From: Ilex aquifolium
Taxonomy: Eukaryota > Streptophyta > Magnoliopsida > Aquifoliales > Aquifoliaceae
Assembly: GCA_951799425.1 (NCBI GenBank)
Contig: OX637405.1
Location: 17,705,089-17,769,088, forward strand
Length of the DNA: 64,000 nt
Direction of reading: 5' to 3'
A model generated the notes under the pieces. The model was not told the origin of the DNA and did not search any database. It was given only the letters and a program-made list of their open reading frames with translations. Shown piece by piece: positions 4,864 to 57,580 of this stretch (position 1 is the stretch's first letter; each line of letters opens with the position of its first letter). Position numbers and translations under genes: made by a program.

Positions 4864-6784
4864 TGATTAGCACTTAAAATTAGCATATTACTATGCCGTT
4901 TTAAGACTAATTGTACTTTGATGGAGTTTAAGTGATGTCATTTCAGGCCCTAAACTGAACAAGGACTCAAGAACAACAAGTATCACACTTGAATGCAACA
5001 CCAGCACATTAGAGCCCAAAATTGGAGAAGCTTGGAGCACAGCCAGAACGTTCGAACGCCAACTCATGTTCGAACGGCCACATTGAACTGTAGCAGACCC
5101 AACTGCTAAGAGAAGGCGTGTTGCAGCTAGGAAAGAAGACTGAAGCTTTGAGGCACTTAAGTATCACGTTCGAACGCCAACTCACGTTCGAACGTGCACT
5201 TGAGTTGATTGAAGACCAGACTACTGCATAGAGTGTGGAACTGAACTTCATAGAAGACCAACAGATCACTCGAGTGAGAGGATCAGAGCACATCTGGCGT
5301 TCGAACGCCCATAGTGCAAAGACAGCAGACAACGTTTGAACGTTCATAAAGCAAAAATAGAAACAATGTTCGAACGCCAACTCATGTTCGAACGTTCTCC
5401 ATAGACTGACAGCAGAGTAGTTGATTTTTCACTTGGACTTGGGCGGCATACACTATTCCTTCACCCCCTCTTGTCTCCTCCTCTTGCCTATAAATACTCC
5501 AATTGTTGGAGAGCTTGAGGAGCCAAGTAGAGAGGTTGATGGAGGCTTAGACTCCCACTCACATTGTAGATTTAGCTTACATTTTCCTTGTATGAAGTCT
5601 TTATTTTAGAGATTAGTTTGGCTTTAGTCCAACATCTCCTTGCTTGTTATAAAAGTAGTTTTATGCTTATGCTTTTATTTACATGCATAGAAGGGAGTTA
5701 GTTCATCTTTTGGTTGAGGAAGCAACCCTCCATTCCTTGGTTGAGGAAGCCACCCTCCAAATGTGACTGGCTTTCTTCTACTTTTATTGTTTATGTACTT
5801 CATTTCCATTGCTTGAGCTTCTTTCTTTCTTAGAGGAGTGAAACTCTTCCACTTTTCTAGAGCTTTACCAAAGCCGTGAAGGGTGGAACGTGATTCACTC
5901 AATCTTTTTTAAAGATTGGTTCCTTGTTCATTGTTATTTCATCTTTTAAGTCCTCTACTTGGAGGGATGAGCATCACCCACTTTTCTAACTTTACCAAAG
6001 CCATGAAGAGTGAGTAGTTTCTCATTCACTCTTTAGTAAGAGGAGAAGGGCATGCATAAGTTATCCGGGAATTATATTTGTGCACTGTTCTTATGCTTAA
6101 CGTTTATTTCTTCTTGCTTATTGGATGATTGATTACATCTAGCAAAGTTAAGGTACTTTGTATAACCGTGGGCTCTTTCTATGACACGGATGACTCTTGC
6201 ATAGAAAGACTCATCGGATCAAGGCAAGTACCCCGGCTAGATCTTCATGACTACCCTTCAATCCTCCCCCTTATTGTGCTTCATTTAAAGAATGTAATAT
6301 TAATGTCATGATTGGATGTCTTGTAGAAACACTTGCTTGTTTGTAGACGGGTTAAGTCTCGGCACAGACAATTCTTGTAAACTTCTAGAAAGACATCGGA
6401 ATCATGTTCTTAATTCTCATAGTCAATCTTTATCTTCCGATTAACTTGCTGTTAACACGAGAGTTAATTGAGTTATCAAGCATAAGTATAATAAACCGAA
6501 TAATTAATTACATGTCCAAATTCTTGAACTAAAGAGTGACTTTTTTTTATTAGAGTTTATCTCATATTTTGTTAAGACAATTCTCTTGGAAAGAATCTTA
6601 TATTCTGTCCAGGAAATCTCACACATCACAACAAATCTCAAAGGTTATAATCAATAGGTCTCCACCACTGCTTATCTCAAAAATACCAACAAAAGTTCCC
6701 TGTGGATTCGACTCTGGACTCAAACCGGATTATTACTACAGCTTGACCGCCTACACTTGGGTGTACACATTTCGGATCAAGTCA
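4864..6784 (+). repeat. 5' LTR of element A (about 1.92 kb)
   Basis: It starts TGATTAGCAC and ends GATCAAGTCA, a few bases before the primer site. U3 holds the CGTTCGAACG array (5049-5394), then a TATA box CTATAAATA at 5488-5496. The R/U5 part is AT-rich with repeated CTTTACCAAAGCC blocks near 5866 and 5990. The only ORFs in it are short and without family similarity. Confidence 0.9.
5049..5394. promoter_or_regulatory. CGTTCGAACG palindrome array in LTR A
   Basis: Seven TTCGAA-centred palindromes start at about 5049, 5067, 5167, 5185, 5298, 5367 and 5385. They often come in pairs 18 bases apart separated by CCAACTCA-like spacers. A degenerate copy lies near 5333. The array sits about 95 bases upstream of the TATA box, where upstream promoter elements belong. 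A binding role is inference. Confidence 0.8.
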
Positions 6785-6790
6785 AGTTTT

Positions 6791-10293: not shown

Positions 10294-11982
10294 TGATTAG
10301 CATAAAACTTTGTATATTTTTATGTGCTAATCATCTTATTTTAATTACTTTTGGAGATTAAATGATGGGAGTTGGGTTAATTGAGTTCTTAACGATGATA
10401 TTTGGTGTTTGCAGTTAAAAGGTGCTAAATGAGGCTTCTTAAGGCCTTCCCAAACCATTTGAGACAAGTGAGGCTGAAAAGATAGCTTGGGGATAGCTCA
10501 GGAGAGGAGGAAATCAGAAAATCAGGAAGTCAGCCAAAATCGTACCGGTACGCTAAGGCTACTGGAATTCAGTGTACCGGTATGCGTACCGGTACGCTGA
10601 AGCCACTGGAGTTCGACGTACCGGTACGCGTACCGGTACGATTTGCCTGATCTGCCCAAATGCTCTGTAACTCATGTCTGCTGATTTGAGGGTCCCACCA
10701 ACAGACCTCCCATGCTCCCCTGACACGCCCACAACACTATTAACCCTTTTCACATCCTTGATTGCAAGTTTGGAGCCTGGGTAATCAATGAGGAGAGAGA
10801 AAAGAAGAGAAGCGGAGCTGGGTGTGCAGACAAGCTCTGCAACCCCTCTGTCCAGCCCATTCCTCTTGCACCCCTACAGATGGAGGTCACTTCTGAAGTC
10901 TAGGGCATCTCTCCAAGCACGTTTTTGGAGGGAAAGGGATCTCCAGCATTGGCATTCAGCATATTGGACAGACATAGATAGATATAGAGAGAGAGAGTCT
11001 GGAGAAGATGATAAATAGTGTTCTAGAGAGATAAACTTGAGATTTTTATATTTTCTTCATGACATTGTCTTGTAATTTGCTATAAGAACCTTTCAAGCTT
11101 CATTTAATGTTATTAATGCTAGTTGCTAGAAGTTGATTGCAAGTTTATTTTTCTCTTTAAGCTTTCACCATTAATGCATCAAAGGTTTCCTTTTCTTACT
11201 TTTAAAATGGGTATTTATTGCTTTCATTTATAATTTATGTTTATGTGCATTTAGTTACTCAAGAGCTTTATTCCTTTGGAATGCATCCTCACTACATTAT
11301 TAATTTCATCCCAAGCATGAGTAGCTAAAATCTTTTAGTTGGCAATACCAAGGGGAACCTCCACTTGGGTATGCCATTTCAACTAATTCTCCTCCCTTTT
11401 TCAGAGATCAATGGTTCGGTTTGACTGGGTTGAGGGTGGATAAATTGGTGAGTCTTTGATATTCCGTAGGCCTAGTCACGGTTTATGCTTAGATACTCAC
11501 CCTTCTTATCCCCAGCTTCTCACGAATCAATCGTTCCTTCATGCTCTATTTGAGGAGGGATTCGAGTTGAGATGACATTCCTATTGGAGTAACCTCTTGG
11601 GTTTGCCAACACTTGTTTCTCACTTCATTTTCATCAACACACACTCACCAAACAACTTTCAACCACAAAGATTTTACACTTTCTTTTACTAAAAATCACC
11701 TTCCCATTTGGTTTACTTCCTTCCCCGTGGAAACGACCTTGGAATACCACCAAGTAAAACACGACCCGCGAAAGTCTCCTTGCGCTTGGGGGGCACTTTT
11801 GTACACACACACACATTTTTGTGCATTCACATTTCACATTTCCATCATCTCATTTTCCTTTCTCCTTGCCCTTTCTTTTGAAACTATCCTAAGGGAGAGT
11901 GACACTCCCCTTTATCCATACACTACACATTCTAAGGGATGGTTTTTAGAGGTTAGGAAACAACAACGTTTTTCTTCAAGCA
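10294..11982 (+). repeat. 5' LTR of element B (about 1.69 kb)
   Basis: Starts TGATTAGCATAAAAC and ends TTCTTCAAGCA. The U3 carries the CGTACCGGTACG array, then a GGGTCCCACC block also found in LTRs D and M. No clear TATA box was found. The 3' part contains TCCTTGCGCTTGGGG, shared with LTRs D and M. Confidence 0.92.
10541..10640. promoter_or_regulatory. CGTACCGGTACG palindrome array in LTR B
   Basis: Four perfect 12-base palindromes start at 10541, 10585, 10617 and 10629, with a degenerate copy at about 10573. Spacers contain CCACTGGAGTTCGA. A slightly longer version is in the 3' LTR (22086-22197), and a third copy lies inside the element upstream of ORF3. Confidence 0.85.
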
Positions 11983-19848: not shown

Positions 19849-19957
19849 CGTACCAGTACGCATACCGGTACGCTAAGGCTACTGGAGTCAGCGTACTGGT
19901 ATGCGTACCGGTACGCTGAAGCCACTGGAGTTCGACGTACCGGTACGCGTACCGGTA
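19849..19957. promoter_or_regulatory. Internal copy of the LTR B palindrome array, upstream of ORF3
   Basis: Palindromes CGTACCGGTACG at 19904 and 19936, with near copies at 19849, 19861, 19890 and 19948. Spacers match LTR B (CTAAGGCTACTGGA, GAAGCCACTGGAGTTCGA). The similarity to the LTR starts near AGTCAGCCAAA and stops at the last palindrome, so only this module is shared. A degenerate TATA-like CCTAAAATACA lies at 19993-20003. The ORF3 ATG is 240 bases from the array. The likely role is an internal promoter for ORF3 (inference). Confidence 0.7.
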
Positions 19958-20196
19958 AACTCAATTTTTTTCGGAACACCTTTTATTTCCCTCCTAAAAT
20001 ACAACCCCCCTTTTCACTCCTCTCTCACCCGAATCACCCCTTAGGCTTCCAAATCACACCAATCTTCTTTCAATCTCTCAAATCCTCTCCCTTGTGCTGT
20101 GATTAAGTGGAAATCAACCTTTTGAAACCCTAAGTGCCGAAAATTCCCCAAACCCTATTCTCTCTTCATTTCTCAAATTCTCCTAAAATCTCTCAA

Positions 20197-21534
20197 ATGG
20201 CTCGTTCTATAGGGATTCTCCAAGAGACCATGGACCCGATTGAGGGTCTCTTCTTGACCCTTTTCGCTTTTCTGATGATGGGGGCACTGTTGCTGTGCAT
20301 GGCCCGCACCAAAACAGTGGGGCCTGAATCTCCTCCACCCGAAGGCTCTAGTGGTCGCAAGAGAAGTGGAAAGGGGTCGAGTGGTGATAGGAGCGAGCAG
20401 AGAAAGAAAGCCAAGAATGAGCCTAGGGATCAACTGATCCGGGAGAAGGGGGTCACTTGCGAACGGTACCTGGACTCCATTTCCCTTACCCCTAGGAATG
20501 AGGCTGTGAAAATTATCGAAGCACATGGTATAAATTTTTGGTTCGAGCCTGTTGATGGGTATAACTTGTCAATGTGTAGGGAATTTTACCAAACACTCCG
20601 GGTGTCAGAGGTGGACGGAGTGGAAGTCTTGAAAACCAATGTTCGGGGCAAAATATTTATGGTGACCCCTGATGTCATTGCCATACTCCTGGGTGGGTAC
20701 AAGAGGCCACCTGGGTCTACACCTGTCTATCCTCATAACGTCACAAAATCCAAGAAGATATCTGAATTGGCAGAATTGATGTATCAGGAGCCTGGAGAAT
20801 TCAAGGGAACAGTGCAAAGTGGGAGGTTGAAGCCCACTTATGGACTGTTGAATAAGCTCCTCCATTGCAATCTTTTGCCAAGGGGTGCGAAAAAGAAACC
20901 AAATTTAGAGAAGCTGACCCTTTTGGATGCAGTCGTGTCTGGGAAGGCAATTGACTTCTCTCTTCTCATTTGGCAAGATATGAAAAACTTTGCTGAGACG
21001 CAGAAGCCTATGATCAGACTACCATTCGGGAACTTGGTAACCCGGATGTGCCAGAAATTCAAAGTTAAGGAATATGCGTTCGACAAGATTACCCCCCCAG
21101 AGACTGGAGCCATCGGCAGAACCAGTAAGAAGAAAAGAAAGGCAATGAGTCGAGGGAAGCGAGCCAAGACCATGGCTGCTGGTTCTGAGGCCCCCGGGGC
21201 ATCTTCATCCGCTGGGCCATCCGCTGCTACACCTGAACGTTCGGTCCCTCAGCGCCTCGATGCACTAGAGACTACGGTGCATGGGATTGAGGCTACTGTG
21301 CTGGGGATGGCGGCAATGATGAAGGAGCTGTTTGTGCATACCTTCCCTGGGAGGCCCATCCCAGAAGTCCCCATTCCACTAGCCACTACTCCCTCTGCTT
21401 CTGCCCCCTCTGCTTCCAAAGCAGTTGAGGAAGAGGAGGAGGATGATGATGATGACACTGAGGAGTCTGGGGAAGGTGAGGAGTATGATGAAGGCGATGA
21501 GTCTGAGGATGATGACACTGAGGAGGATGTGTAG
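20197..21534 (+). CDS. ORF3 of element B: putative plant transposon protein family, env-position ORF
   Basis: Open for 445 codons, unlike the rest of the element. ATG at 20197 is the first in frame; the family-like start MARTKTVGPESPP is at 20299. Residues 17-35 (GLFLTLFAFLMMGALLLCM) form a hydrophobic segment able to span a membrane. A Lys/Arg-rich stretch follows, then a globular part (RYLDSISLTPRNEAVKIIEA ... REFYQTLRV ... LPFGNLVTRMCQKF). After that come a second basic patch (KKKRKAMSRGKRAK), a short heptad-like segment (RLDALETTVHGIEATVLG) and a very acidic tail. It resembles the plant proteins labelled putative plant transposon protein that accompany Athila elements. Its molecular function is unknown. 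It follows an LTR-like palindrome array and precedes the PPT. Confidence 0.8.
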   Translation: MARSIGILQETMDPIEGLFLTLFAFLMMGALLLCMARTKTVGPESPPPEGSSGRKRSGKGSSGDRSEQRKKAKNEPRDQLIREKGVTCERYLDSISLTPRNEAVKIIEAHGINFWFEPVDGYNLSMCREFYQTLRVSEVDGVEVLKTNVRGKIFMVTPDVIAILLGGYKRPPGSTPVYPHNVTKSKKISELAELMYQEPGEFKGTVQSGRLKPTYGLLNKLLHCNLLPRGAKKKPNLEKLTLLDAVVSGKAIDFSLLIWQDMKNFAETQKPMIRLPFGNLVTRMCQKFKVKEYAFDKITPPETGAIGRTSKKKRKAMSRGKRAKTMAAGSEAPGASSSAGPSAATPERSVPQRLDALETTVHGIEATVLGMAAMMKELFVHTFPGRPIPEVPIPLATTPSASAPSASKAVEEEEEDDDDDTEESGEGEEYDEGDESEDDDTEEDV

Positions 21535-21838: not shown

Positions 21839-22527
21839 TGATTAGCATAAAACTTTGTATATTTTTATGTGCTAATCATCTTATTTTAATTACTTTTGGA
21901 GATTAAATGATGGGAGTTGGGTTAATTGAGTTCTTAGCGATGATATTTGGTGTTTGCAGTTAAAAGGTGCTAAATGAGGCTTCTTAAGGCCTTCCCAAAC
22001 CATTTGAGACAAGTGAAGATGAAAAGATAGCTTGGGGATAGCTCAGGAAAGGAGGAAATCAGAAAATCAGGAATTTAGCCAAAACCGTACCGGTACGCTA
22101 AGGCTACAGGAATTCAGCGTACCGGTATGCATACCGGTACGCTTAAGCCACTGGAGGTCGACGTACCGGTACGATTACCGGTACGCGTACCGGTACGATT
22201 TGCCTAATATGCCCAAATGCTCTGTAACTCATGTCTGCTAATTTGAGGGTCCCACCAACAGACCTCCCATGCTCCCCTGACACGCCCACAACACTATTCA
22301 CCCCTTTCACACCCTTGATTGCAAGTTTGGAGCCTGGGTAATCAATGAGGAGAGAGAAGAGAAGAGGAGCTGGGTGTGCAGACAAGCTCTGCAACCCCTC
22401 TGTCCAGCCCATTCCTCCTGCACCCCTACAGATGGAGGTCACTTCTGAAGTCTAGGGCACCTCTCCAAGAACGTTTTTGGAGGCAAAGGGATCTCCAGCA
22501 TTGGCATTCAGCATATTGGACAGACAT
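21839..22527 (+). repeat. 3' LTR of element B, truncated
   Basis: It matches the 5' LTR base for base apart from scattered changes, through the palindrome array (22086-22197, which has one extra partial copy) to GGACAGACAT. There the sequence changes to element C. About 1.0 kb of LTR is missing. Confidence 0.92.
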
Positions 22528-38363: not shown

Positions 38364-39660
38364 GCCAATAAAAACCACTTTGTAAAATTTTAGCTAAAGT
38401 TTTCTTGTAAGAGAAGTGCCCACCACACGCTTCAGAATGACAGAAGGAGAGGACATCCTGTTGTTCATTTTTTGGCACACACCTCCTCATGACTTGATCA
38501 GGGTAATATTTGAATAGGTACGGGTTGTCGAAGTAGAAGTACTTAACATTCACTATGGATCTTCTCTTGTCTTTTGGGCTCCAATGTGGGGGAATTTGTC
38601 CTATGGCAAGAAAATTGCAAATATCAGCATACCACAGACAAACTAAATGGATAGAAAATAGATGCCATCAAGGAAATAATCAGAGATAGGGATGTGCTCT
38701 TTAGCGTCTTGGACAACAAGCCGTGACAAATGGTTCGCCACCACATTCTCGACTCCTTTTTTGTTCTTGATGATTAGGTTGAATTTTTGAAAGAGGAGAA
38801 TTCACCTAATGAGTCTCGATTTAGCATCCTACTTAGACAACAAATACTTCAAAGCAGAGTGATCAGTGTAGACTATAATAGGTGAACTAATGATGTATGA
38901 GCTAAATTTATCTAATACAAACATTACAGCTAGTAACTCTTTTTTCAGTAGTGGTGTAATTCATTTGTGCTTCATTTAGAGTTTTACTAGCATAGTATTA
39001 TATACGAACTTTTATCTTCCCTTTGACCTAGCCCTGCACCTACTGCATAATCACTCACGTCGCACATGAGCTCAAATGGGAGTTCCCACTTGGGTGGTCG
39101 CATGATTGGAGGTGAGGTAAGCATACTTTTAAGTTTTTTGAAAGATGCCTCACAATCATCTAACCACACGAATGGGACATCCTTTGCTAACAAATTCGTC
39201 AAAGGTCTTGCCAATGCACTGAAATCCTTAATGAAACGGCGATAAAAACCTGCATGGCGAGGAAACGACTTGATGTCCTTGACTACCCTTAGAGTGGGTA
39301 GGTTGAAAATCGCTTCCACTTTAGACTTGTCCACTTCGATTCCCTTTTTGGACACAATGTGTCCGAGCACAATCCCTTGTGTTACCATGAAGTGACACTT
39401 TTCCCAGTTAAGCACCAAATTCTTCTCTTCGTATCTCTCTTACACTTTCTCTATATTCTCCAAACATCCTTCAAGGGAGTCTCCAAACACTAAGAAGTTG
39501 TTCATAAACACCTCCACAATATTTTCCACCATATTGTTGAATATCCCCACCATACATCTTTGAAAAGTTCCTGGGGCATTGTACAAACCAAACGGTATTT
39601 GGCGATAGGCATATGTTCCAAAGGGGCATGTGAATGTGGTCTTCTCTTGATCTTCCAGGG
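38364..39660 (-). pseudogene. pol: RT C-terminus, RNase H and integrase N-terminus of element L
   Basis: Minus-strand [35 protein letters not shown], then VFMNNFLVFGDS, in which both catalytic Asp of FMDD are Asn. Then [20 protein letters not shown] and [18 protein letters not shown]. RNase H has CDVSDYAVGAGLGQ and YTDHSALKYL. The integrase H2C2 region (HSEACGGHF...) ends at SGFYW where P begins. Stops near 39440 and around 38580-38990 break it. Confidence 0.87.
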
Positions 39661-39817
39661 CATGCCAATGTTGCATGGGTGTTTGATATTCATTGCCTTT
39701 GGACCTTGGTTCAATTTATGTCCTGAAATGTCATCATTTAAACTCCATCAAAGTATAATTAGTCTTAGAAAGGCATATTAAAATGTCAATTTTAACTACT
39801 AATCACACCCCCAACCT
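39661..39817 (-). repeat. PPT and 145-bp stub of the 3' LTR of element J
   Basis: The PPT reads AGGTTGGGGGTG on the minus strand (39817-39806), then TGATTAGTAGTTAAAATTG (39805 down). It matches the LTR start at 52670. The stub ends at ATGCCCTGG, which also fits the RT sequence that follows. Confidence 0.85.
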
Positions 39818-41560
39818 AAATATTGCTAGTCTCTAGTAATACAAGAGCAATTAAATGAGATTTATTTACAATGCCATTTTCGTAGGTCATCCGGTTACAT
39901 TTAGCGTATGCAACAAGCCGTTAAACCACCAGGTTTACCCTAGTGGACGAGTGTTGTCTCGTGAGGGTTTTCAATGAAGCTACCCACAAACTTCAGTCGA
40001 ACAGATGTGCATGTGAGATTGCTGGTTAAAGTAAGTTAGCATCATGGTCGTTGGGACACCCAACTCTCAATTTCGACTTATCTCCCGTACACCCCTCTTT
40101 CGTTGGTATTTATTCTATGCACAAATTAGCACCTGTCACATTGGCATTTGAGATTCCCTGTGTAGTCAGAATGATCATTCTAGCAACAAGAATTGTTATA
40201 TAACAAACATTCCTCGTTTCCACCTTCCAGGGATAGCTTTGATTTCACAAACCTCTCGTAGAATACTCTCAGCAATAATTCCCTCTGATTATAGTGACTT
40301 GTCTCTCAAAAGGGCATGTGATTAGAGGATGGCCAATCGAAAAAATCTCATGCACAATTAGTATGGGAGTGGAGTTTTAAAGAAGCAAACTAATCATGTT
40401 TGGCATAATCTCATGGAAGAATATCGATGCAATTAAAGAAATACTATTTACCATACCTCACTTTTGGCTGACAACAAATACATGCATCAGACTTGAGATC
40501 AATTAGGGTTTTTTATAGGTTGTAATGTGGCTAGAGGTCAGTGGCTAACGAAATGACATCAATGGTATTCAAAAGCTATCCTTTCGTTCTATAATGTAGC
40601 ATACCTCTTTCTAGCTTTTCGACATTTTGCCTAGAATAGTTCTTTCTCTCATTTTTTTCTCATTTTTCACTTTCTTGGCAATTTCCTGTATTTCTGTTTC
40701 TTTTTTTTTTTTTTCAATTGTTTCCATCGACTTCTCTTTTCATTAAATAACAGCCACCATAGTCTTTTTCCTTTCTCTTGCATTTCTGTATCATATTGAT
40801 TTATAAGAGGATGTAATAAAATTAGATAGCAAAGGTATGTCAAGTATATTTTCTTGTGGCTTGGTAATCATATGGGTTTCTTTGAAAAAGAAGTCATTCA
40901 TTGAAGGCTCAAGCATGGCTAACTAAGGATAATTTTGTAAAAGAAATGGCTAAGGCTCAAAATCAAATCAAAGATGACCTAAAATCCTTTCTCAAGTATG
41001 TGGATATGTATGTGTCGTATGAACGGATTCCTTGTGGGATATGTCAATAGATCGCTTTAGTTGCGTCAATCAAAGCAAGTTTAATGAGATTATTCAAAAA
41101 TTGAGAGTGAAATACCTTACTTGAGTAAATGTTGATTGTCTCTCAAAAGTATCGCAAGGCTCGAAACTTACCATGGTATTTTTTTTTTTCATCTCCACTG
41201 GCTATGTTAGGTTTCTCAAGGAATGTTGGTTATATATCAATTCCATTTTCGAGTCTGATCTTCTTGTACCTTGAGAATAACAAATATCAATGTACATTTG
41301 ACATTTCAATCATAGAGAAAATACCATTTTTTTCAAGGATCTATGGTGGTAAGTCCAGATTGCTAAGTTAGGTGTCAAACCGATCATGTGATTAATTATT
41401 TTTACAAACAGTCTCAGAATCCATCCTTGTTCCATCATTCATTAACAATCAATATAATGCTAATTCTACACATGCATTTAAAACGATAAAAGTGATAAAA
41501 TTGAACCATTCATTTCACAAAATATGATAGTTGAGCACAAAAATACAAGACTCAAATCAT
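39818..41560 (-). other. 3' untranslated region of element J
   Basis: Non-coding on the minus strand. It has AGTGGAGATGA (near 41205), AATAATCTCATTAAAC (near 41090), the purine tract (about 40600-40800 as pyrimidines on plus) and the three-hairpin block at 39985-39886. Here this module follows ORF3, whereas in B it precedes ORF3. Confidence 0.7.
39886..39985 (-). ncRNA. Conserved three-hairpin block (J copy)
   Basis: On the minus strand ACGAG/CTCGT is kept. The second stem is CTAGG/CCTGG and the third TTGCAT/ATGTAA, each with one change that still allows a G-U pair. This favours a folded RNA. Confidence 0.6.
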
Positions 41561-41599
41561 CCACAAAAGAAGTAATACATACACAACCACACTCAAGAA

Positions 41600-42717
41600 C
41601 ATAAATATCTCTCTCACTCTACGCCAGCTCTACCAGCTCCACCAGCTGAGAATCTCCTCCTACTGTCGGAGAATCTCAGCTTGCTTGGACTCTATGCCAA
41701 GCATAATCTCTCTCAGCGATCGGTGGGTGCTGGTGCTAGGGCCTGCCTCCTCCTGAGTTTGCTCCTAGGCTCTCTCAGCCTCTAGCTCTCTCTCCTCCTC
41801 TTCATCTAACATATCCTGCACCTCATCGGTGCCTCGAGCAGGGGGCACCTCCTATATAGCCGCGGGGGCACCACTATGACCTTGGCTCCTCTGGAAGAAA
41901 GCCTTGTTAAGTGGTCCCATCGGCCTCTGTATCTTCATCTCTGGCCTCACCCTAATCCCGTTATCCTTGCACATCTCTGTGACCAAGGTGCCGAAGGAGA
42001 GTGAGTTTCTTTTTACATTACACCCCTTCATCATCTCGGTCAAAATCAGGGAGGGGAGGTCTACGCTTTGGCCCTTCCCAAGTGCGTATAGCAATCGGGC
42101 TGCCTCGGGGAGGATCTCGTTCTTACGCCCGATGGGGGCGAAGTTCGAGCTCGCAATCAAATTCAACATTTTATATTTATCAGTCAGCTCCCCTTGTCGA
42201 AAAAATCTTCGCCCCAAGAAAAAATAGCTATCCCCGTTAGCTCCGCCCCCACAATATCCATGGCCACCTTTTTTCTCGGGGGGTAGGTAGGACTTGGTAC
42301 TCGAGGTACCTCTTGTCTAAGCTCCCGGATATGGTCCTCGTCTACACCAAAGTGAACCCCCCTCACATAGCTTCATATCTCCCCATTGACTATTTCAGTG
42401 TTGGAGTAAAACTCCCGCACCAAGTCAATCACGGCCTCTCCACCGTTTCTCAAGTACAACGTCCATCCCCTCCTCTCCATGTCCTAAAAAATACCCAACT
42501 CCACAAAATCACTCAATATCACATCCCGCTCACAAACCACAGCTTGGTTTCGGTAAAAATTTTCATACTTGTCTGCCTTGAGCGCGGTGGGAAAGCGAGT
42601 TTTATCATACCTTCGCGTAATGGGTCTCCCTTCTCTCTCCTCAATGACTTCCTCCACCATATTAGGCTCTTGATTTGGTGTGTTGCACCTAGCAGGGAGC
42701 TTGACTCTTGGAGGCAT
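41600..42717 (-). pseudogene. ORF3 of element J (putative plant transposon protein family), degraded
   Basis: Minus-strand ATG at 42717 (MPPRVKLPARCNTPN). The first frame is open to 42484 (KYENFYRNQAVVCERDVILS), then stops and frame changes. Later pieces are VRGVHFGVDEDHIREL (from about 42366) and an open frame 42217-41852 (EAARLLYALGKGQSVDLPSL ... FGTLVTEMCKDNGIRV). The last part corresponds to DFSLLIWQDM...LPFGNLVTRMCQKF in ORF3 of B. A coiled-coil-like tail ending in ESKQAEILRQ lies near 41680. No hydrophobic N-terminal segment is seen, unlike B. Confidence 0.72.
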
Positions 42718-42930
42718 GGTGTTTCAGGTTTGGGGGTGTTAGGGCTTGAAAGTCTTGATTTTCTTGTGAGAATGAGGCCGAATGAGGTGTGAATGACTTT
42801 GGTATGGTCGATTTGGGGTAGAAATTGGGAATGAGAGGTATTTTGAGGGTTGGGTAATGAAGAGGCACTCTAGGTTTTGGCAAATTTTCAAAATTTTGGG
42901 GGTTTTTGAAGTGAAAAAGACTAACCAGGC

Positions 42931-42937
42931 TTTTATA
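42931..42937 (-). promoter_or_regulatory. TATA box upstream of ORF3 in element J
   Basis: GGCTATAAAAGCC on the minus strand, 14 bases below the nearest CGTTCGAA palindrome and 214 bases upstream of the ORF3 ATG. Position and sequence are those of a plant core promoter. Confidence 0.6.
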
Positions 42938-42950
42938 GCCTGAGAGTTGA

Positions 42951-43183
42951 CGTTCGAATGTTAATGACGTTCGAACGTATGTAGTAGAATTTTAAAAAGA
43001 ACGTTCGAACGTGATGAGCTCCCAGTACTTTTGAGTTCTGTCAGAGACCAAAGTACTGTAAGCTCATGGCGTTCGAACGTGGTACTCTCGTTCAAACGTC
43101 AATTGGCGTTCTAACGTGCTGAGCTCCCAGTACTTTTTTTTTCCATCAGAGACTGATTACTGTAAGCACGTGACGTTCGAACG
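42951..43183. promoter_or_regulatory. Internal copy of the LTR A/J palindrome array, upstream of ORF3
   Basis: CGTTCGAACG at 42968, 43002, 43070 and 43174, with near copies at 42951, 43089 and 43107. A 105-base unit containing GAGCTCCCAGTACTTTT is present twice (43016 and 43121). The palindrome is the one used in the LTRs of this family (5049-5394; 49036-49292; 52458-52485). Confidence 0.75.
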
Positions 43184-43783
43184 TCAAAGCAAAAATAAAA
43201 AATTTCTATGTAAATTTATGTAAACATTTAAAGGAAAGGAATACACACAAATTTGATCTAAAAATTTATGGCGTCTCAGGATAAGTCCCTACCCACGCTT
43301 AAGGTTGGTATTCTAGGACACTCCTTACTCGGCCCATATTTTCATTTCAGTCAAAAGAGTTTGTACAAAAAAGATTTTTACACTTTTTACAAAAATTCGG
43401 ACCCTTGGCTCTCATTCCCAAAACACAATTTTTCATAGTTTTGTTAGAAAATAGTCTAATCCGAGTTATCCTTTGTCTCCGTGTCATATGAGCCATCAGT
43501 GAATCTTCTAATTTCCTGTCGCACAAATCGGTTAAGTAAAGTATCCGAATAGGATGGCGTGTCAGGATAATCCTTACTCTGTCCATTCACTATCCACTCT
43601 AATCGATCGAGTGTGCAACCGAAAATTGGTTCAGAATGTTGATTATATTCCTTCATGTGAAAGACCAGGCCACATTGTTTACAGGCACCAAGTCTTTTGG
43701 CACGACGACGTTTAGCAAATGTGTTTCTGCCACATAGTGGTTGATGAGTGGGTTTTATACCTACACAGCACCTACAACGTAAT
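43184..43783 (-). other. Unassigned insert with a cysteine-rich basic reading frame
   Basis: It lies between truncated RNase H (ends near 43784 at CDASDYVVGAV) and the ORF3 promoter, where integrase should be. Minus-strand frame 43782-43456 encodes about 108 residues without an early ATG. It contains CGRNTFAKRRRAKRLG, then ACKQCGLVFHMKEYNQH, then an acidic end. The only internal ATG is at 43656. Paired Cys beside an Arg/Lys cluster suggests a small nucleic-acid-binding module. It faintly recalls cysteine-rich basic proteins of some plant RNA viruses or a captured host exon. I cannot assign it. Below 43450 I see nothing recognisable. Confidence 0.4.
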
Positions 43784-44830
43784 CACTAGCATCACACATT
43801 AATTCAAAACGGTAGAGTCCAATCAGGGGGTTGCATGATTGGGGCAGAAATTAACATACCTTTAAGCTTGTCAAAAGCTTTCTGGCATCCTTCACTCCAC
43901 ACAAATATTACGTCTTGACTCAGGAGATGACACATGGGTTTAGCTATGGTACTAAAGTCTTTTATGAATCTCCTATAGAACCCTGCATGTCCTAGGAATG
44001 ATCGGACATCCTTTACAGTCTTGAGAGCATGCAAGTTTCCAATCAGATCTATTTTTGCCTTGTTAACTTTCATGTGTTCAGATGACACAATGTGACCCAG
44101 AACAATGCCTTGTGTTACCATGAAATGGAATTTCTCCCAATTGAGCACTAGATTGGCTTCCTTGCATCTTATTAACACATTTTCTAGGTTTGTTAGACAC
44201 AAATCAAATGAGTCACCATATACAGAGAAGTCATCCATAAACACTTCCAAATTTTTTTAATCATGTCACTGAACAAGCTTAGCATGCATCTTTGGAATGT
44301 TGCAGGAGCGTTATAAAGTCCAAACGACATCCTTTTGAATGCAAAGGTGCCGAAGGGGCATGTGAACGTTGTCTTCTCTTGGTCATTTAGTGCTATCTAG
44401 ATTTGATTGTACCTAGAATACCCATCTAGGAAACAGTAGAATGCATGTCCTGCAATTCTTTCTAGGACTTGGTCAAGAAATGGAAGAGGAAAATGGTCTA
44501 TTCTAGTTACCAAATTGAGTTTTCGATAGTCTATACACATCCGTCATCCCGTGACGACTCGAGTTGGTACTAGTTCATTGGCATCATTCTTGACCACTGT
44601 GACCCCAGATTTTCGATAGTCTATGCACATCCGCCATCCTGTGACGACTCGAGTTAGTACTAGTTCATTGGTATCATTCTTGACCACTATGACCCCAGAT
44701 TTTTTTGGCTCAACTTGGGTTGGGCTCACCCATTTGCTATTAGAGATGGAGAAGATTATTCCTGCATCTAATTGCTTAAGCACCTCAGTTCTCACAACTT
44801 CCTTCATGTGAGGATTCAGTCGTCACTGCA
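43784..44830 (-). pseudogene. pol: RT and RNase H start of element J
   Basis: Minus-strand MKEVVRTEVLKQLDAGIIF (44807), SKWVSPTQVEPKKSG, then a 90-base in-frame tandem duplication around GVTVVKND-NELV-TRVVTG. Then the palm with FMDDFSVYGDSF intact (about 44235), [36 protein letters not shown] and ELMCDASDYVVGAV, where it ends. A TGA replaces Trp in GWRMCIDYRK in one copy. RNase H remainder and integrase are missing. Confidence 0.87.
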
Positions 44831-45960
44831 TTTGACGAGAGGGTTTTGAATCCTCTTCAAGGTATATAACATGATTGCAGATTAACGGGCTTATACCCTT
44901 CAAGTCAGCGATGGTCCACCCAATGATGCTTTTATAGAGTTTGAGAACTTCAATCAGCTTAGACTCTTGCAAGTCCGTAAGCTTAGATGAAATTACCACT
45001 GGGTATGACTCGTCCTCTCCTAAGAATGCATATTTGAGGTCAGATGGGAGCGACTTTAGTTCAAGCTTTGGTGGCTTTACACTTGATGAGAGTGGCTTTG
45101 TACCACTTGATGAGAGTTCCTCAAATTTGGGTGCCCATGTCTCAACAGCATAAACAGGGCAACTTTGTGGATTTGGGTCATCATCTGTTGACTCAGATGC
45201 ACTAGGTTCAAAGAAGTATGATTTAGCAGAGGTTTCACAAAAGGTATCATTCACATGTTTGTGAACCAATGACTCAATGAAATTTATTTCTCTTACTTCC
45301 TTGTCCTCTCAAGGGTGCTTGGCAATATTGAAAATGTTCAGCTCAAGAGTCATATTCCCAAAAGGTAATTTCATGACTACATTCCTGCAATTAATTAGTG
45401 CATTCGAAGTTGCAAGGAAGGGTCGACCAAGAATAACGGGAATTTAGTTCTCCGAATGTATTGCTGGCTGAGTGTCTAGAACAATGAAGTCAACAGGGAA
45501 GAAAAAGCTGTCCACTTGGACAAGTACATCTTCAACAATGGCCCTAGGGATTTTGACAGATCTGTCTGCCAACTGGAGTGTGACACAAGTGGGTTTGAGT
45601 TCACCCAGACCCAATTGTTGGTAAACAGAGAGTGGGATTAAATTGACACTTGCCCCAAGATCGAGCAAAGCTTGTTCTATTCCGAAGTTTCCAATGACAC
45701 ACGACTCGGTTGGACACCCAGGGTCCTTGTATTTTGGAGGGGTTTTGTGTTGAAGTAAAGCACTGGCTTGTTCCGTCAAGAAAGCTCTTTTTTGAGCATT
45801 TTGGCTTCTCTTGATTGTGCAGAAGTCTTTCAGAAACTTGGCATAAGACGAAACCTGTTTGATTGCATCCAGAAGTGGGATATTGATCTTTACTTGCTTA
45901 AAAAGCTCGTAAATTTATGGCTGGTTATTCAACTTCTGTACAACTTTTAGTCTTTAGGGG
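44831..45960 (-). pseudogene. pol: Athila protease and linker of element J
   Basis: Minus-strand TEQASALLQHKTPPKYKDPG, active site LLDLGASVNLIPLS (about 45650), ADRSVKIPRAIVEDVLVQVD, a stop within SEN*IPVILGRPFL, and the linker MVHKHVNDTFCE to LICNHVIYLEEDSKPSRQMQ. Closest to element A at the residue level. Confidence 0.85.
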
Positions 45961-47614
45961 ACAGGAGCAAGAATAGGGCATGAAGGTTCTTTTTCCTTTG
46001 GTAATTCTAGGTCCTTTTCAATCATAGGCTCATGCTCAACTGGTTTAGTGCATGGAATTGACTTAGGTCTTGGCCTTGGAATCAACATGTTTCTTATTGT
46101 TTTTCAATCACCTTGCCACTTCTCAGTGTAGTGATGACTTGAGCTTGGTCTTGTGGGGTTTCTATGATTGAAGGATTTCCCACATGAAATTGGCCTTGTG
46201 AAGGTTTTGGTTGGCCAGAAAACTTGCCCTTCTCGTGTGTGCTCTTAGATTGGGTCAATTTTTGGATGTGAATTTTGATATCATTGAAAGACTGGGTGGT
46301 CTGTGCTTTGAAATCGGTGAAAGCCTGTGTGGAATGGGTGTTGTAGTTCATTTGGGTTTTCATGAACTAGTTTAGTGTCTCTTCAAGGCTCCTCTTGTGT
46401 GGTGGTTGGTATGGTTGATATGCGGGAGGTCCTTGAGGTGGTGGTTGTGAATTTTGTGGATTCATGGGAGTTGGTTGTGTGTTCCTCCAACTGAAGTTTG
46501 GGTGATTCCGCCACCCTAGATTGTATGTTTCAGAATATGGGTTCGAGTAAGGCTTGTTAAAGTTATAAATTGAATTCGTTTGTTCCAACAAGACCTCCTT
46601 GAATGCATGAATGGTAGGACACTCCCCAGTAGGGTGTCCTGTCAGTGCACAAATCCCACACACTTGTTATGTGGGAGGGCCAACATCAACTTGATGCACC
46701 TTTTTCATCTCTAAAGCTTCAAGCTTTCGAGATAGGGTGGACATTTTTGCTCTTAGGTCATCATCCTCTCTCAAGACATACTTACCCCCTTGGGAAGTGA
46801 TGGTTTGGCTTCAACAATGGTAGGAGAGGCTGAGTCCCACATCTAAGAACTATTAGATATGATGTTAAAAAAAATGAATGCCTCCTCTGTACTTTTTCCC
46901 ATAAATTCTCCTTGAGCCATCATTTCGACAAACTGACGTAGTCTAGTGGGTAAGGATACATAGAAAAATCCTACCAAAGTCCAATTCTCAAAAAGCATGG
47001 TGTGGGCAGGATTGGAGCAGATCTTTGAATCTCTCCCTACTTTGGTAAAAGGTTTCTCCTTCTTTGACCGAAAAATTCATGATTTGTCTTTTGAGTGCAT
47101 TAGTACGGTGTAGAGGAAAAAACTTTCTAAAAAATTCATTATGTAATGCCTACCAGTCAGGTATTGAAAGAGATTTTAAAGATTTTAACCATTGTTTAGC
47201 TTTGTCCTTTACAAAGAAAGGAAAAAGTTTCATCTTGACCAGTTCAAAATTGTCTTGAAATGTTCCACATACTTCCTCAAAATCTTTTATGTGCAGATAC
47301 GAATTTTCATATTCGAGTCCATGAAATTGAGGTAGTAGTTGCACTATCCCTGCCTTTACACTAAAGATGGGTGCATTTGCAGGAAAGATAAAGTAAGAGG
47401 GGACACTATTTCTTGTGGGATGTAAGTAATCCCGCAAAGTTCGAATGTTAGGCACTTCCCCCTCTCTCACAGGGACTTCTCATTGTCTCTCATTATTTGC
47501 CATACTATTTTCACAAGAGTCTGCTACTGATCTAGGTGAAGATGGTTCAGGCTGATTCACAGACCCAAAAGATTATGCCCGCAAATTTTGATAGTGAGGA
47601 GCGTCCTCAGACAT
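45961..47614 (-). pseudogene. gag: Athila gag of element J
   Basis: Start ATG at 47614 (MSEDAPHYQNL), soon followed by a stop. Capsid core from 47470: LRDYLHPTRNSVPSYFIFP, LLPQFHGLEYENSYLHIKDF. Stops near 47150 and 46985 and a frame change break it. The knuckle CGICALTGHPTGEC (about 46660) is intact, then YNLGWRNHPNFSW and the Gln/Pro-rich tail to 46094. Confidence 0.85.
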
Positions 47615-47710
47615 AAAAAAAAAAGTAAAATAAAATTATCCACAGTAAAACAAAAATATATACAAAAAGGAAGGTCTTTTTAACTTTTACCTTAAAACAC
47701 CTTTTATGGC

Positions 47711-47728: not shown

Positions 47729-47734
47729 AAAACT

Positions 47735-49353
47735 TGACTTGATCCGATATGTGTACACCCAAGTGCAGGCGGTCAAGCTGTAGTAATAATCCGGTTTAAG
47801 TCCGGAGTCGAATCCACATGGAACTATTGTTGGTGTTTCGAGGTAAGCAGTGGTGGAGACCAAATGATTGTAACCCTTGAGATTTGAAGTGGTGTATGAG
47901 ATTTCCTGGACAGAATATATGATTCTTTCCAAGAGGGTTTTCTAGATAAAATATAAGATAAGCTCAAATATAAAAGGTCACTCTTTAGTTCGAGGATCTA
48001 GACATGTAGTTAATCATCCGATTTATTATACTTGTACTTGATAACTCAATTAACTCCTGTGTCAATAGCAAGTTAATCGGAAGATAAAGGTGGATTATGA
48101 GAATTAAGATCATGGTTCCAATGTCTTTCTAGAAGTTTACAAGAATTGTCTGTGCCGAGACTCAACCCGTCTACAAACAAGTAAGTGTTTCTACAAGGCA
48201 TCCAACCATGACATTAATATTCCATTTCCATTCCTTAAGTGAAGCATGATAATGGTGAAGATTGAAGGGTAGTCATGAAGATCTAGTCGGGGTACTTGCC
48301 TTGAACCGATGAGACTTTCTATGCAAGAGTTATCTACGTTATAGAAAGTACTCACGGTTATACAAAGTACCTTAGCTTTGCTAGATGTAGTCAATCATTC
48401 AATAAACAAGTAAAACATAAAGCATTTAAGTATAAACGAAATGCATAGATATAACTTTCAGATGATTTATGCATGTCTTTTACCTCTTACTAAAGAGTGA
48501 ATGAGAAACTACTCACTCTTCATGGCTTTGGTAAAGCTAGAAAAGTGAGTGATGCTCATCCCTCCAAATAGAGGAGTTACAAAGTAAAACACAATAAGCG
48601 AGGAGCCGATCTTCGACGAAGAATAAGTGAATCACGTTCCACCCTTCACGGCTTTGGCAAAGCTCTAGAAAAATGGAAGAGTTTCACTCCTCTAAGGGAA
48701 GAAGGAAGCTCAAGCAATGGAAGCAAATGAAACTAATAATGAAAGTAGAAGAAAACTAGTCACTTTTGGAGGGTTGATCCGGAACCAAAAGATGAACTAT
48801 CTTACTTTATGCAAGTAAATAAGCCTAAGTCTAAGACTAAGACAAGTTAAGAAATGTTGATCTAAAACTACCAAAACCAAGTCCCCCCTTTTGAAGCTCC
48901 CACAATGGGAGTATTTATAGGCAGAAAGGAGGGGGCAAGTTAGTGTGGAGGAATAGTGCAAGGCCTTCAAAGTCCAAGTGAAAGTCCTAATGTTTGGAGA
49001 GAAAATCAACCACTCTACAGCCTCTCTGGGGAATCCGTTCGAACGTTGTCTGACGTTCAAACATTGTGTCTGTCTTTGCTTGATGAGCGTTCGAACGTTG
49101 GATGGTGTTCAAAAGCTCCTTCTGTCTTTGCTTGATGAGCGTTCGAACGCCAGATGGGGTCTGATCTTCCCACTCAAGTGGCCTGTGGTCTTCTGTAAGA
49201 GCCATTTCCACACTCCATGTTCAACTTGACGTTGCACTCAGCAGCCTTCAATAATTCAGCAGAACGTTCAAACATTATTTGGCGTTCGAACGTGGTACTC
49301 AAGTACCTCAGTGTTTTCCTTCTTTTCTGCAACACGCCATGTCTCAGTAGCCT
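47735..49353 (-). repeat. 5' LTR of element J, 3' portion
   Basis: Minus-strand LTR end GGATCAAGTCA at 47735. TATA box CTATAAATA near 48919-48911. CGTTCGAACG palindromes at 49036, 49088, 49140 and 49283. Aligns with LTR A from about 5110 to 6784. Interrupted at 49353/49354 by solo LTR F. Confidence 0.88.
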
Positions 49354-52300
49354 TGTGACGCCCCAAATCCGGGGGTCCTTTATTAACCGTTGACAACCCG
49401 TCAACCCGCGGAAACATCCGTGGATATCGCTCAACCCGACACCACATCAAGAATATCTTTAAGTCGGGATTATAACCCATAAAGAAAATTCGGTTTAACA
49501 TTCATTTGATTCAATTAAAGTCCCATACACCGTGGTTTGTACCCCATTAGGGTCCACTTTGATCATTTAAAGGAAGGAAATTCAAAGCCCAAAGAATTGG
49601 CAAAACATTTAAAAAATTTCAGATTTTTGGAATGACTACCTGTCGGCTACCGGTAGCTGTTTCCCTCTGGAAAACAACTACCTGTTGGCTACCGGTAGCT
49701 GTTTCCTTCTGGAAAACAACTACCTGTTGGCTACCGGTAGCCGAAACATTTTGGAGCTACGACTACCTGTTGGCTACCGGTAGCTGTTTCCTTCTGGAAA
49801 ACAACTACCTGTCGGCTACCGGTAGCTGTTTCCTTCTGGAAAACAACTACCTGTTAGCTACCGGTAGCTAAAGGCAGATTTTGCCCATTTCATTAGTTTT
49901 TCATTTCCAACTCATTTCAAACTCTTCCAAACTCATACCAAACATATATAATGAGAATTCCCACATCATACATAGTCCATGGAAGTCCATTTCATACAAT
50001 TCCAGATATGTACACATCCAAATGGAATTTATATAAAAGTTATACAATTTAACCATAAAAGCCACATTCTGGCTTCTTCAACTTTGAGGCCCCAAATGAG
50101 AACCTCCCTCCCGCGAATGATGCGCACCTGAAATGTTTCCCTTATAGGGTGAGCCAACGCCTAGTAGAGTGTTTCCTACGGAGGCTACTCCTTAACCTAT
50201 ATGCATATGAAATGTTCACATGCACAACCACAATTCCCATAACCATTCCATCAAGTAATATGATTAAATGATGTAATGCTAGAATGTCATGCCATGAATG
50301 AGGTGAGACCCACCCATGTGCACCCAACCCGAGTCCACTCCGACTCCCTTTACATGTCAATGCCATGTATGTTAAACCCGGGCTACCCAAGCCCCATAAA
50401 ATGAGATGAGACTCATGTACTCAACCCGAGTCCGCCCCGGCTCAACATGAAATGAGATGTGACTTATTTATGCACTCACCCCAAGCCCTTCCCAGCTCGA
50501 CAACACAATGCAAATGTCAATGTGTAATGACCCGTCTTCGACGGAAATACATCCAATGATCACTTTGAATAAAAATCATGCGTTTTATAAATAAGATCAT
50601 TATTGGATGGTACTCATTGAATGAGTATTTTATAAATCAAAATCTTGTGTCTTCCTGGGCAACGGATTTTGGAATCGCACCGCCGGCTCCGTGGGCCTAA
50701 CTACACTTTTCTGGAATTTCACCGCCGGAAAGTGCATAAACCAAGTGGTTTAGGGTTTTTCACCCAAGGAAGTCGCCATGCCCCTTCTTGCTATACCCGA
50801 CACAAGTTTTTCCATGCATGTAATCGTGCGACTCAGTCGGATTTTCAATCCAACTTTCCCGAGCCCACCCTTCAACCACCAAGAATGATGTTTGAATGAA
50901 CCATGCACCCACACTAATGAATGACTCCCATGAATGTGACACAACCTTATGCCCAATATGCTATGACCGCCAATGAGCAACTCTTTTCATGTCCACATGC
51001 ATTTAATACCACATAGATTGTGGTACAATACCCATGCACAAACACACCCACACCCATGCTAACATCCCATGAATGTGATGCCACACCATGTCCCATATGC
51101 AATGTATGCAACTTGGACTACTCCTTGCGTCAATTACCATGCCGGGTATCGACGTCAACCATGCACTCACCCATGAAATAAATGATTCCATGCCAATGCA
51201 ATGTAATGCACCATTGCATATCCATGCCATGTGCTATATGATATGAATGCCATATGGACAATTAATTCATAATTTCACATGTTCACATTCATGACAATTA
51301 TATCAATAACATATAACTACCAAATTCCTTAACCATGTCAATACATCAAGGAACATATATTGGCATCTTAGTGCATAATTTCACATAGCTCTACTCATCT
51401 AAACATGTTATCACAATTTCGTTGGAATAACAACCAATTCCACAACCAAGGCATTTAAACAAACACCTTCAAGACAAACAACATGTTATCACATAAGTTG
51501 TTCAATTTCTCTCAAGAAATTCCTATAGGCAATTTCTATTAAACAATTTAGGATAAAATTAGTTTACCCCAATTGCATCAATAGGTAAGTGTACTTTCTT
51601 AACAACCTATCCATTCTTTTACCAATTAAATCAAAATAGGCAAGGGTCATTGGCCTCTAACACCCTACCCATTTCCAATACACATTCTAGGTTCGGGATA
51701 AACCAAAGTAGGAAACCCCTACCTCTTGTAGCGTGAGGAACGACGTAGGAAGCTCCCAAGACCCGAAAACCAACTCGAAGCTTGATTTTCGTACACTTCC
51801 ATCTTTTCACCTTCGGCGAAAACCATTGTTTTTGGTACCCACGCGTAGCCCTTGTCGCGTAGATCACTTCTCCCTTCTAGCTCAACGGAGTCCGAGCGAC
51901 GGAGGCCGGAGAAATCGCCGGAGAAAGGGTTAAGAAACCCTTTTCTCTCTCTTCTCCCTCTCTCTCTCTTTGAATGGCTGAACCAAGGGAGCAAATGTGA
52001 TATTTTCTTCCAAAATATCAAAAATAAACCCCTATTTATAGTCCTGGAATGTGCGGCCCTAATCGCTCCACACGTTTATTACTTTCGGGTCCGTTTTTCG
52101 TCCCGAAACGACTCATTAAGTCCCGGATTAAGTCCAAATAAATTTTATTGGCACATTAATCCAATTATAAGGAATTTTAATATTTCTCGTTTTTGGGGAC
52201 CTTTAAAAGGTCAATCGCCACGCAGTCGTCTCGATCTACGTGCAAAATCCGACTCTCTCGAAATTCAACGAATTTTCTGGTGGTTACTAGATTTCGCGTT

Positions 52301-52429
52301 GCGAATCCAATGGCGCACTCCGTTCCCTCCTCCGAGGTCTAGAACATATGTATTTTAAATACGTGCAGTAGTGGCAAATTACCATTTTGCCCTTTTTCAG
52401 AAAAAGTTCAAATTTTCATGGGTTTCACA
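49354..52429 (-). mobile_element. Element F: solo LTR of about 3.08 kb, TSD AGCCT
   Basis: Ends are inverted repeats TGTGA...TCACA. The flanks are AGCCT at 49349-49353 and 52430-52434, and removing F restores a continuous LTR J. A TATA box CTATAAATAG lies at 52040-52031 on the minus strand, about 0.39 kb from its 5' end, which sets the orientation. The middle (50280-51230) has degenerate repeats around CAACCCGAGTCC and CATGAATGTGA. ORFs inside (for example 51852-52358) have no recognisable domain. It is probably a Ty3/gypsy LTR of the Tekay/Del kind, but that family call is tentative. Confidence 0.75.
49634..49870. repeat. 42-bp tandem repeat with CTACCGGTAG core in F
   Basis: Six copies of CTACCGGTAG start at 49647, 49689, 49731, 49774, 49816 and 49858. 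Spacing is 42 or 43 bases, with TTTCCTTCTGGAAAACAAC in most spacers. It lies downstream of the F TATA box in F orientation, unlike the U3 arrays of the Athila LTRs. Confidence 0.85.
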
Positions 52430-52670
52430 AGCCTGGTCCTCAAATAATTCAAGGGGACGTTCGAACATTATTTGGCGTTCGAACGTTCTTTCTTTGTTCC
52501 AAGTTTCTCCAATTTTTCTCCAGGGCATGTCAATGTTACATGGGTGTTTGATATTCATTGCCTTTGGACCTTGGTTCAATTTATGTCCTGAAATTTCATC
52601 ATTTAAACTCCATCAAAGTATAATTAGTCTTAGAAAGGCATATTAAAATGTCAATTTTAACTACTAATCA
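52430..52670 (-). repeat. 5' LTR of element J, 5' portion
   Basis: Minus-strand start TGATTAGTAGTTAAAATTG at 52670. CGTTCGAAC palindromes at 52476 and 52458. Together with 47735-49353 it gives about 1.86 kb, close to LTR A. The first five bases (52430-52434) are the F target duplication. Confidence 0.87.
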
Positions 52671-57567: not shown

Positions 57568-57580
57568 AAGTTGGGGGGTG
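57568..57580 (+). promoter_or_regulatory. 3' polypurine tract of element D
   Basis: AAGTTGGGGGGTG immediately before the 3' LTR start TGATGAGAAC. Confidence 0.9.

Follow-up and report, generated by a model that had tools for sequence, protein, structure and literature searches.

The locus raises the question of whether the third open reading frame (ORF3) of an Athila-like plant retrotransposon is served by a promoter of its own and, if so, how such a promoter relates to the one in the LTR. The expression of plant env-like ORFs is unsettled. A 2020 review describes env-like genes as driven by the 5' LTR promoter (PMC7264820), whereas an internal promoter has been assigned to Athila6A (PMC4977677; the literature is cited here from the portions of text available to us). 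The first-pass annotation of this DNA held that third-ORF expression is commonly put down to splicing or not accounted for, which overlooks both the Athila6A ENV promoter (PMC4977677) and the palindromes of Sireviruses (PMC2829016). In the window (the whole 64-kb stretch of DNA that was analysed), LTR palindromes recur before ORF3, which suggests that this gene may have its own promoter, controlled like the whole element.

Upstream of the ORF3 of an Athila-like element (family 1), seven CGTTCGAACG-type palindromes were found at 42951-43183 (-), starting at 42951, 42968, 43002, 43070, 43089, 43107, and 43174. Four of the seven (42968, 43002, 43070, and 43174) are exact and the other three carry one mismatch. 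The array covers the interval from 234 to 466 nt upstream of the ATG of ORF3 (42717), which confirms the earlier placement of palindromes 230-470 bases before it. The sequence CTATAAAAG is present downstream of the array at 42938-42930 (-). A TATA box had been reported here, and its presence holds; its distance to the ATG had been given as 214 bases, and we measured 220 nt from the TATA T (42937). Across the whole window there are 21 CGTTCGAACG matches with at most one mismatch (mean 0.34 and maximum 3 in 100 shuffles), and all 21 belong to family 1 LTRs or stand before the family 1 ORF3. The two strands of the window contain 13 CTATAAA[AT] sites, the family 1 ORF3 TATA box among them. At least four palindromes within 450 nt upstream occur at 3/13 of these sites, namely the two LTR TATA boxes (CTATAAAT at 5488 (+), eight palindromes, and at 48920 (-), four) and the ORF3 one (seven). 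This agrees with the claim that the same palindrome precedes the TATA box of the LTR. The site at 52041, which is in an insertion, has two palindromes upstream that belong to the interrupted family 1 LTR, and the other nine sites of the window have no palindrome within 450 nt upstream. Within the ORF3-upstream array, two inverted-repeat units of ~80 nt (43184-43106 and 43080-43001) are bounded by palindromes, and a paired module (43116-43089) has the LTR-type linker. A unit of ~105 nt is duplicated, with direct repeats of 47 nt (85%) and 27 nt (89%), and the seven palindromes are thus not independent. We also note that the extra inverted repeats of this array (43001-43184) are absent from the family 1 LTR arrays.

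Our comparisons indicated that the array resembles the family 1 LTR beyond the palindromes themselves. By BLAST, 21 nt of the array are identical to 49300-49280 in the LTR of the same element (E 6.5e-6), and the other family 1 LTR copy matches at 19/20. Flanking identity outside the palindrome extends to 11 nt at best. With all seven palindromes held fixed and the remainder of the array shuffled, 1/2000 shuffles attained this value in the LTR orientation, while the result for the reverse orientation was unremarkable (195/2000 shuffles). Local alignment of the whole array with three LTR pieces gave scores reached by 24, 10, and 37 of 1000 shuffles in the LTR orientation and by 100, 334, and 325 of 1000 when reversed, with six of the seven internal palindromes treated as such and 42951 counted as flank. 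The local-alignment support over the whole array is only modest. The linker CCAA.T.A is present in 5/6 LTR palindrome pairs at 18-bp spacing, the sixth (49063) deviating. Among the three close pairs of the internal array, the one at 18 bp keeps all six linker bases (chance 3.6e-4, for one pair), and the remaining two are spaced at 17 or 19 bp. Given these flank, alignment, and paired-module matches to the LTR, at least part of the array is likely to share its origin with the LTR U3 array. Copying of a whole module was considered for family 1 and rejected: scores for the TATA region and the downstream sequence against the LTR were reached by 80 and 997 of 1000 shuffles (0/1000 in an LTR-LTR control). 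The last palindrome lies 14 nt from the TATA box before ORF3 versus 95 and 117 nt in the LTRs, and the TATA context also differs. The spacer at 43456-43190 showed no resemblance to the LTR start (470 and 500 of 500 shuffles). The idea of a copied LTR promoter module hence survives for the U3 array, which is related beyond the palindrome, and fails for the core promoter, whose TATA context, spacing, and downstream sequence were not copied.

The family 1 element is a decayed Athila-like LTR retrotransposon on the minus strand, extending from 52670 to about 39654 (Table 1). An insertion (about 49349-52411) splits its 5' LTR and severs palindromes 52458 and 52476 from the rest; the PBS (47728-47711, minus strand) follows directly after this LTR. 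The two LTRs are 98.0% identical over their first 152 nt, after which the 3' LTR is truncated. At 39654, it passes in a mosaic join into another element of the same strand, at reverse transcriptase/RNase H sequence. The gag (E 0.017), protease (E 3.3e-4), and reverse transcriptase (44256-43807, E 4.8e-5) matches of the family 1 element are all below the curated cut-offs of Pfam, and its longest open stretch is at most 161 codons. A tblastn search with the intact pol of another element in the window matched 44574-43764 and ended at query residue 270; from there to the 3' LTR, tblastn found no RNase H tail or integrase, which are therefore gone from this element. The region upstream of the array is no ordinary pol-ORF3 spacer. 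Where the RNase H tail and integrase are expected stands a carlavirus-like fragment, whose PF05515 match is just under the curated cut-off. Five proteins from public contigs (774-1622 nt) match this fragment at 67-75%, all of them above the PF05515 cut-off, and the fragment is without the N-terminal ~40 residues of these relatives. It looks like the product of template switching onto plant virus RNA. In IMG/VR, the 18-base LTR pattern was found in three contigs with a single palindrome each, which we take as chance, and protein-guided scans (viral-protein alignment, ORF3, pol) confirmed no relative. In the broken ORF3, the PF20167 stretch (42316-41855, E 1.7e-12) is in a different frame from the ATG stretch.

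Table 1 Coordinates of the features of both families within the 64-kb window.
Feature	Position	Strand	Details
LTR of another family 1 copy	4864..6790	+	8 palindromes 5049-5394; TATA 5488; PBS 6791
Family 1 5' LTR	47729..52670	-	palindromes 52476, 52458, 49283, 49140, 49088, 49036; TATA 48920
Carlavirus-like nucleic-acid-binding protein, C-terminal fragment	43459..43782	-	open stretch; PF05515, E 4.3e-4
Family 1 ORF3-upstream array	42951..43183	-	seven CGTTCGAACG-type palindromes, two inverted-repeat units, one paired module
Putative TATA box GGCTATAAAAGCC	42928..42940	-	TATA T = 42937, 14 nt below last palindrome
Predicted family 1 ORF3 5' leader	42718..42907	-	190 nt, no ATG, 13 G; start predicted
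Family 1 ORF3, broken	41855..42717	-	ATG 42717; first open stretch 42717-42487; stop 42486
Family 1 3' LTR start	39654..39805	-	polypurine tract precedes; 98.0% identical to 52519-52670
GTACCGGTAC clusters	10542-10639, 19850-19958, 22087-22196, 53235-53302, 58041-58108		LTRs of two elements and one intact ORF3 front
Family 2 5' LTR (part)	10294..10975	+	GTACCGGTAC palindromes 10542-10639
Family 2 ORF3-upstream array	19850..19958	+	near-copy of own U3 array
Family 2 ORF3 leader	19959..20196	+	238 nt, no ATG, 16 G
Family 2 ORF3, intact	20197..21531	+	445 aa; PF20167, E 4.4e-24
Family 2 3' LTR (part)	21839..22527	+	palindromes 22087-22196; polypurine tract before, motif 21828-21842

The same layout was found with a different palindrome in a second family. 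GTACCGGTAC, which has 14 copies among the recurrent palindromic 10-mers of the window, gives 24 matches in five clusters when one mismatch is allowed. The family 2 element (10294-22527, plus strand) has LTR parts that are 94.4% identical and an exact PBS at 11987. Its sequence at 19863-19957 is identical to the 5' LTR (10543-10638) at 92/96 positions and to the 3' LTR (22088-22183) at 87/96, and the two LTRs match each other at 113/123 across the array. This near-copy of the element's own U3 array before an intact ORF3 is the strongest support for reuse. From the end of the array to the ORF3 ATG there are 240 nt in family 2 and 234 nt in family 1. A tblastn search of the 64-kb window with ORF3 found one other copy, that of family 1 (E 1.2e-5); thus both of the ORF3s found in the window are preceded by the array of their own family. 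No canonical TATA was found in family 2 between the array and ORF3 or within 700 nt after the 5' LTR array. A TATA is therefore present at both family 1 sites and at neither family 2 site, so that each putative ORF3 promoter resembles its own LTR. The alignment score of the sequence before the family 2 array was reached by 8/500 shuffles against its own LTR and by 120/500 against the LTR of a third element, a weak indication that a U3 relic may extend further upstream. The LTRs of this third element are a repeat pair (52774-54605 and 57580-59410, 95.8% identical) with two GTACCGGTAC clusters, which we take as LTRs given the PBS after the first copy and the polypurine tract ahead of the second; tblastn found no significant ORF3 in it (best 28-residue match, E 0.42).

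With regard to lineage, the PBS TGGCGCCGTTGCCGGGGA is exact at 6791 (+) and at 11987 (+, family 2) and occurs with two mismatches at 47711-47728 (-) in the family 1 element. We take its letters to pair with tRNA-Asp, so that the PBS is of the tRNA-Asp type, as in Athila. This tRNA is the primer of Diaspora and Calypso (PMC1142308). The pol ORF of family 2 (15267-17750, plus strand) contains RVT_1, one RNase H region, H2C2, and rve, and no second RNase H. Tat is marked by an additional RNase H, which the RT-RH-INT order of Athila lacks (PMC6317226). Family 2 has this order and the family 1 element keeps RT. Both families have a sense ORF with PF20167 between pol and the 3' LTR, and this domain presumably marks the Athila ORF3. 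Judged by these sequence features, both families are Athila-like and, by domain order (seen in family 2), Ty3/gypsy elements. Sirevirus membership was considered and rejected, given the Ty3/gypsy domain order in family 2 and the core of the family 1 palindrome, which is TTCGAA and not CGG-CCG. The family 2 palindrome GTACCGGTAC contains CCGG, yet it is in a gypsy element. The Sirevirus-type layout, with one palindrome in U3 and again before the third ORF, is present in both families, and a TATA after the LTR array in family 1 only.

The sequences between the arrays and ORF3 share an ATG-free and G-poor composition. The family 1 leader is predicted to start at a CA dinucleotide, located 30 nt downstream of the TATA T. 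Windows that are ATG-free and as G-poor or more (leaders included) number 13/12,762 at 190 nt and 2/12,754 at 238 nt, with cut-offs derived from the two leaders themselves. Five places qualify at the 190-nt cut-off, the family 1 leader and four elsewhere; the family 2 leader qualifies solely at its own cut-off. For the idea of an internal promoter, these leaders, the family 1 TATA box, and the lack of a strong splice acceptor provide indirect support. The arrays are also rich in CpG. In family 1, CpG observed/expected is 1.61 in the ORF3-upstream array and 1.10 and 0.99 in the LTR arrays; the family 2 values are 1.54 (ORF3-upstream) and 1.72 and 1.76 (LTR), and values from 0.26 to 0.71 were obtained for the tested regions of other kinds (coding, leader, spacer, and 3'). 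The high values in the arrays are partly due to the palindromes, which themselves contain CpGs.

From the arrays that we observed, the sequence that they share with the LTRs, their position, and the composition of the leaders, we infer factor binding, a transcription start, a separate mRNA, and co-regulation. We consider it probable that the U3 array would be a factor-binding upstream element that has been reused for an ORF3-proximal Pol II promoter co-regulated with the LTR. Each family's CpG-containing 10-bp palindrome, repeated in U3, would offer sites for a dimeric transcription factor, and the copied U3 block, sited a few hundred bases upstream of ORF3, would give rise to an mRNA both separate and shorter. 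This mRNA would begin between the array and the ATG (in family 1 near 42907, 30 nt below the TATA box), and its leader would reach the ORF3 start without an upstream ATG. The LTR and ORF3 promoters would answer to one factor, with a core promoter individual to each place. We note that all evidence for this promoter reading is the sequence of one 64-kb window, in which the family 1 ORF3 is broken. The modest whole-array alignment and the extra inverted repeats of family 1 count against it, as does the lack of a canonical TATA in family 2. It is also possible, and here our confidence stays somewhat on the low side, that families repeatedly overwrite the array before ORF3 with their own LTR array, which would keep the genomic RNA and the ORF3 mRNA under one family-specific regulator. 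If this is true, Sireviruses (Ty1/copia) would have arrived at a two-promoter design independently. Should palindrome identity track between LTR and ORF3 array across families, this would be evidence of selected co-regulation. Two families whose palindromes differ share the signature; any plant genome can be screened for it, and it yields a prediction of the start sites of ORF3 mRNAs.

Concerning the possible regulator, a heat-shock element was rejected for the family 1 palindrome, in which the half-sites TTC and GAA touch. LIN54-type CXC proteins bind TTYRAA, a site that the core TTCGAA fits, and we propose very tentatively that a protein of this type (TSO1/CPP1) could be the family 1 regulator. 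The TTYRAA site is kept in 20/21 CGTTCGAACG-type palindromes and is absent from the family 2 palindrome; its retention is not discriminating, because single CpG-deamination changes preserve TTYRAA anyway. The TTYRAA consensus has been described together with DNA-recognising tyrosines conserved in tesmin-family proteins, including Arabidopsis TSO1 and soybean CPP1 (PMC4974476).

Several other explanations of the arrays need to be weighed. ORF3 could be expressed from a spliced LTR transcript, with the U3-like block a relic of recombination or template switching that has no or only a weak promoter role, and we regard this as rather unlikely. Reverse transcriptase is able to carry U3 sequence inward by template switching, and the window has other mosaic joins (the 3' LTR cut at 39654 and the viral fragment in pol). 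Nonetheless, the arrays stand at near-equal distances from ORF3 (234 and 240 nt) in two families with different palindromes, and a random relic predicts no such match. As for splicing itself, it has been reported for barley Bagy-2 (cited in PMC7264820), donor-like words are present between the family 1 LTR TATA box and gag (five among the matches listed), and ATG-free leaders with weak acceptors would be compatible with a spliced mRNA too. The family 2 leader has one fair acceptor, at 20044, matched by 82.5% of windows. By contrast, no good acceptor was found at 43456-42700 in family 1, where the best site is equalled or beaten in 98.5% of random windows; these figures come from a crude pyrimidine count and not from a splice predictor, and the lost end of the family 1 pol could have held an acceptor.

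Alternatively, the arrays could act in RNA, through dimerisation, export, packaging, or hairpins that feed small RNAs. As RNA, the family 1 array folds far better than shuffles (z -7.6, and z -4.4 with the palindromes kept in place), and both the U3 at the RNA 3' end and the ORF3-upstream block are in the 3' half. We judge this reading improbable, considering that the two family 1 LTR arrays tested have little structure beyond their palindromes (z -1.3 and -0.45, palindromes kept in place), that a perfect 10-mer palindrome is what a DNA site bound by a dimer typically looks like, and that Rfam gave no match at gathering threshold in 39600-52700. The chances seem slimmer still that the array is a functionless chance cluster or a local tandem duplication, its likeness to the LTR stemming from CpG-rich palindromes that are common in the LTRs of this genome. 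Part of the family 1 array is indeed the duplicated ~105-nt unit, and two more CpG-holding palindrome types recur in the window. However, chance is excluded by the shuffles (21 matches against a mean of 0.34), the family 1 flanks also match the LTR, the family 2 array is 92/96 identical to its own LTR, and in both families ORF3 is preceded by the palindrome present in the LTR of the same element. A chance cluster or local duplication is thus already disfavoured.

The promoter reading that we prefer, an LTR-type array reused before ORF3, has parallels in several known systems. Foamy viruses, which are animal retroviruses, have a second promoter inside the retroelement genome, as predicted here; their internal promoter for downstream ORFs lies within env and is not known to be a U3 copy. 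Among the matches listed from the literature, Athila6A and the Sireviruses appear closest. In Athila6A of Arabidopsis, transcription start sites have been characterised and an internal 'ENV ORF promoter' annotated (Panda et al. 2016, PMC4977677). It is likewise an Athila element with an internal promoter assigned to an env-type ORF; for that ENV promoter, the available text states no palindromes or sequence shared with the LTR, whereas for the promoter predicted in our elements it is the shared array, seen in the sequence, that serves as evidence. RDR6-dependent silencing targets nearly all Athila6A elements that keep the ENV promoter (PMC4977677), and our array finding bears on this link between promoter retention and silencing. 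In Sireviruses, palindromes stand in the LTR before the TATA box and again upstream of ENV and were offered as support for an internal ENV promoter (PMC2829016). These palindromes are element-specific and nearly all contain CpG (Bousios et al. 2010, PMC2829016). Of the copies of the Sirevirus linker, 77/79 are before ENV; ENV is present in 9/13 elements, and the four without ENV have none (PMC2829016). The elements described here share with Sireviruses, as far as the available text goes, the element-specific palindrome clusters in the LTR and before the third ORF. They differ in being Ty3/gypsy by domain order and not Ty1/copia and, in family 2, in having a whole U3 block, rather than a motif, near-identical at both places.

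Other plant elements offer looser comparisons. Grande gene23 of maize is an extra ORF in the 3' internal region with its own promoter (Gomez-Orte et al. 2013, as cited in PMC7264820 and PMC11963269). That own promoter is reported for Grande and predicted here; gene23 differs in being antisense, and the texts available describe no LTR-shared palindrome array for Grande. The barley element Bagy-2 has an env-like third ORF and belongs to the Athila clade (PMC6317226), but its env-like mRNA is spliced (Vicient et al. 2001, as cited in PMC7264820), unlike the ORF3 expression proposed here. Among the matches listed from open-licence literature, in the portions of text available, we saw none that describes this arrangement of palindromes for Athila-type elements, and the matches listed for the CGTTCGAACG word are all unrelated by title and the start of the abstract. 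An internal ENV promoter (Athila6A) and LTR/ENV palindromes (Sireviruses) are hence known already, and the palindrome layout in Athila-like elements is a variant thereof.

The window contains further elements and motifs. A third palindrome type, CTACCGGTAG, forms clusters of six and seven at 49647-49867 and 63607-63840. The first of these falls within tandem repeats of the sequence inserted into the family 1 LTR, and the second is at the expected 5' LTR of a minus-strand element (PBS 62314). Seven PBS of one type (at most two mismatches) are present in the 64 kb, at 6791, 11987, 26940, 33347, 47711, 54613, and 62297; judging from its sequence features, the window is a nest of Athila-like elements. 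A polypurine-tract-like sequence, GTTGGGGGGTGAGGT, occurs inside two elements, at 17980-17994 and 55890-55904 (+). The copy at 17980-17994 is about 230 nt past the family 2 pol stop and far from the 3' LTR, and the internal GTTGGGGGGTGAGGT is possibly a second polypurine tract, which would be another parallel with Sireviruses.
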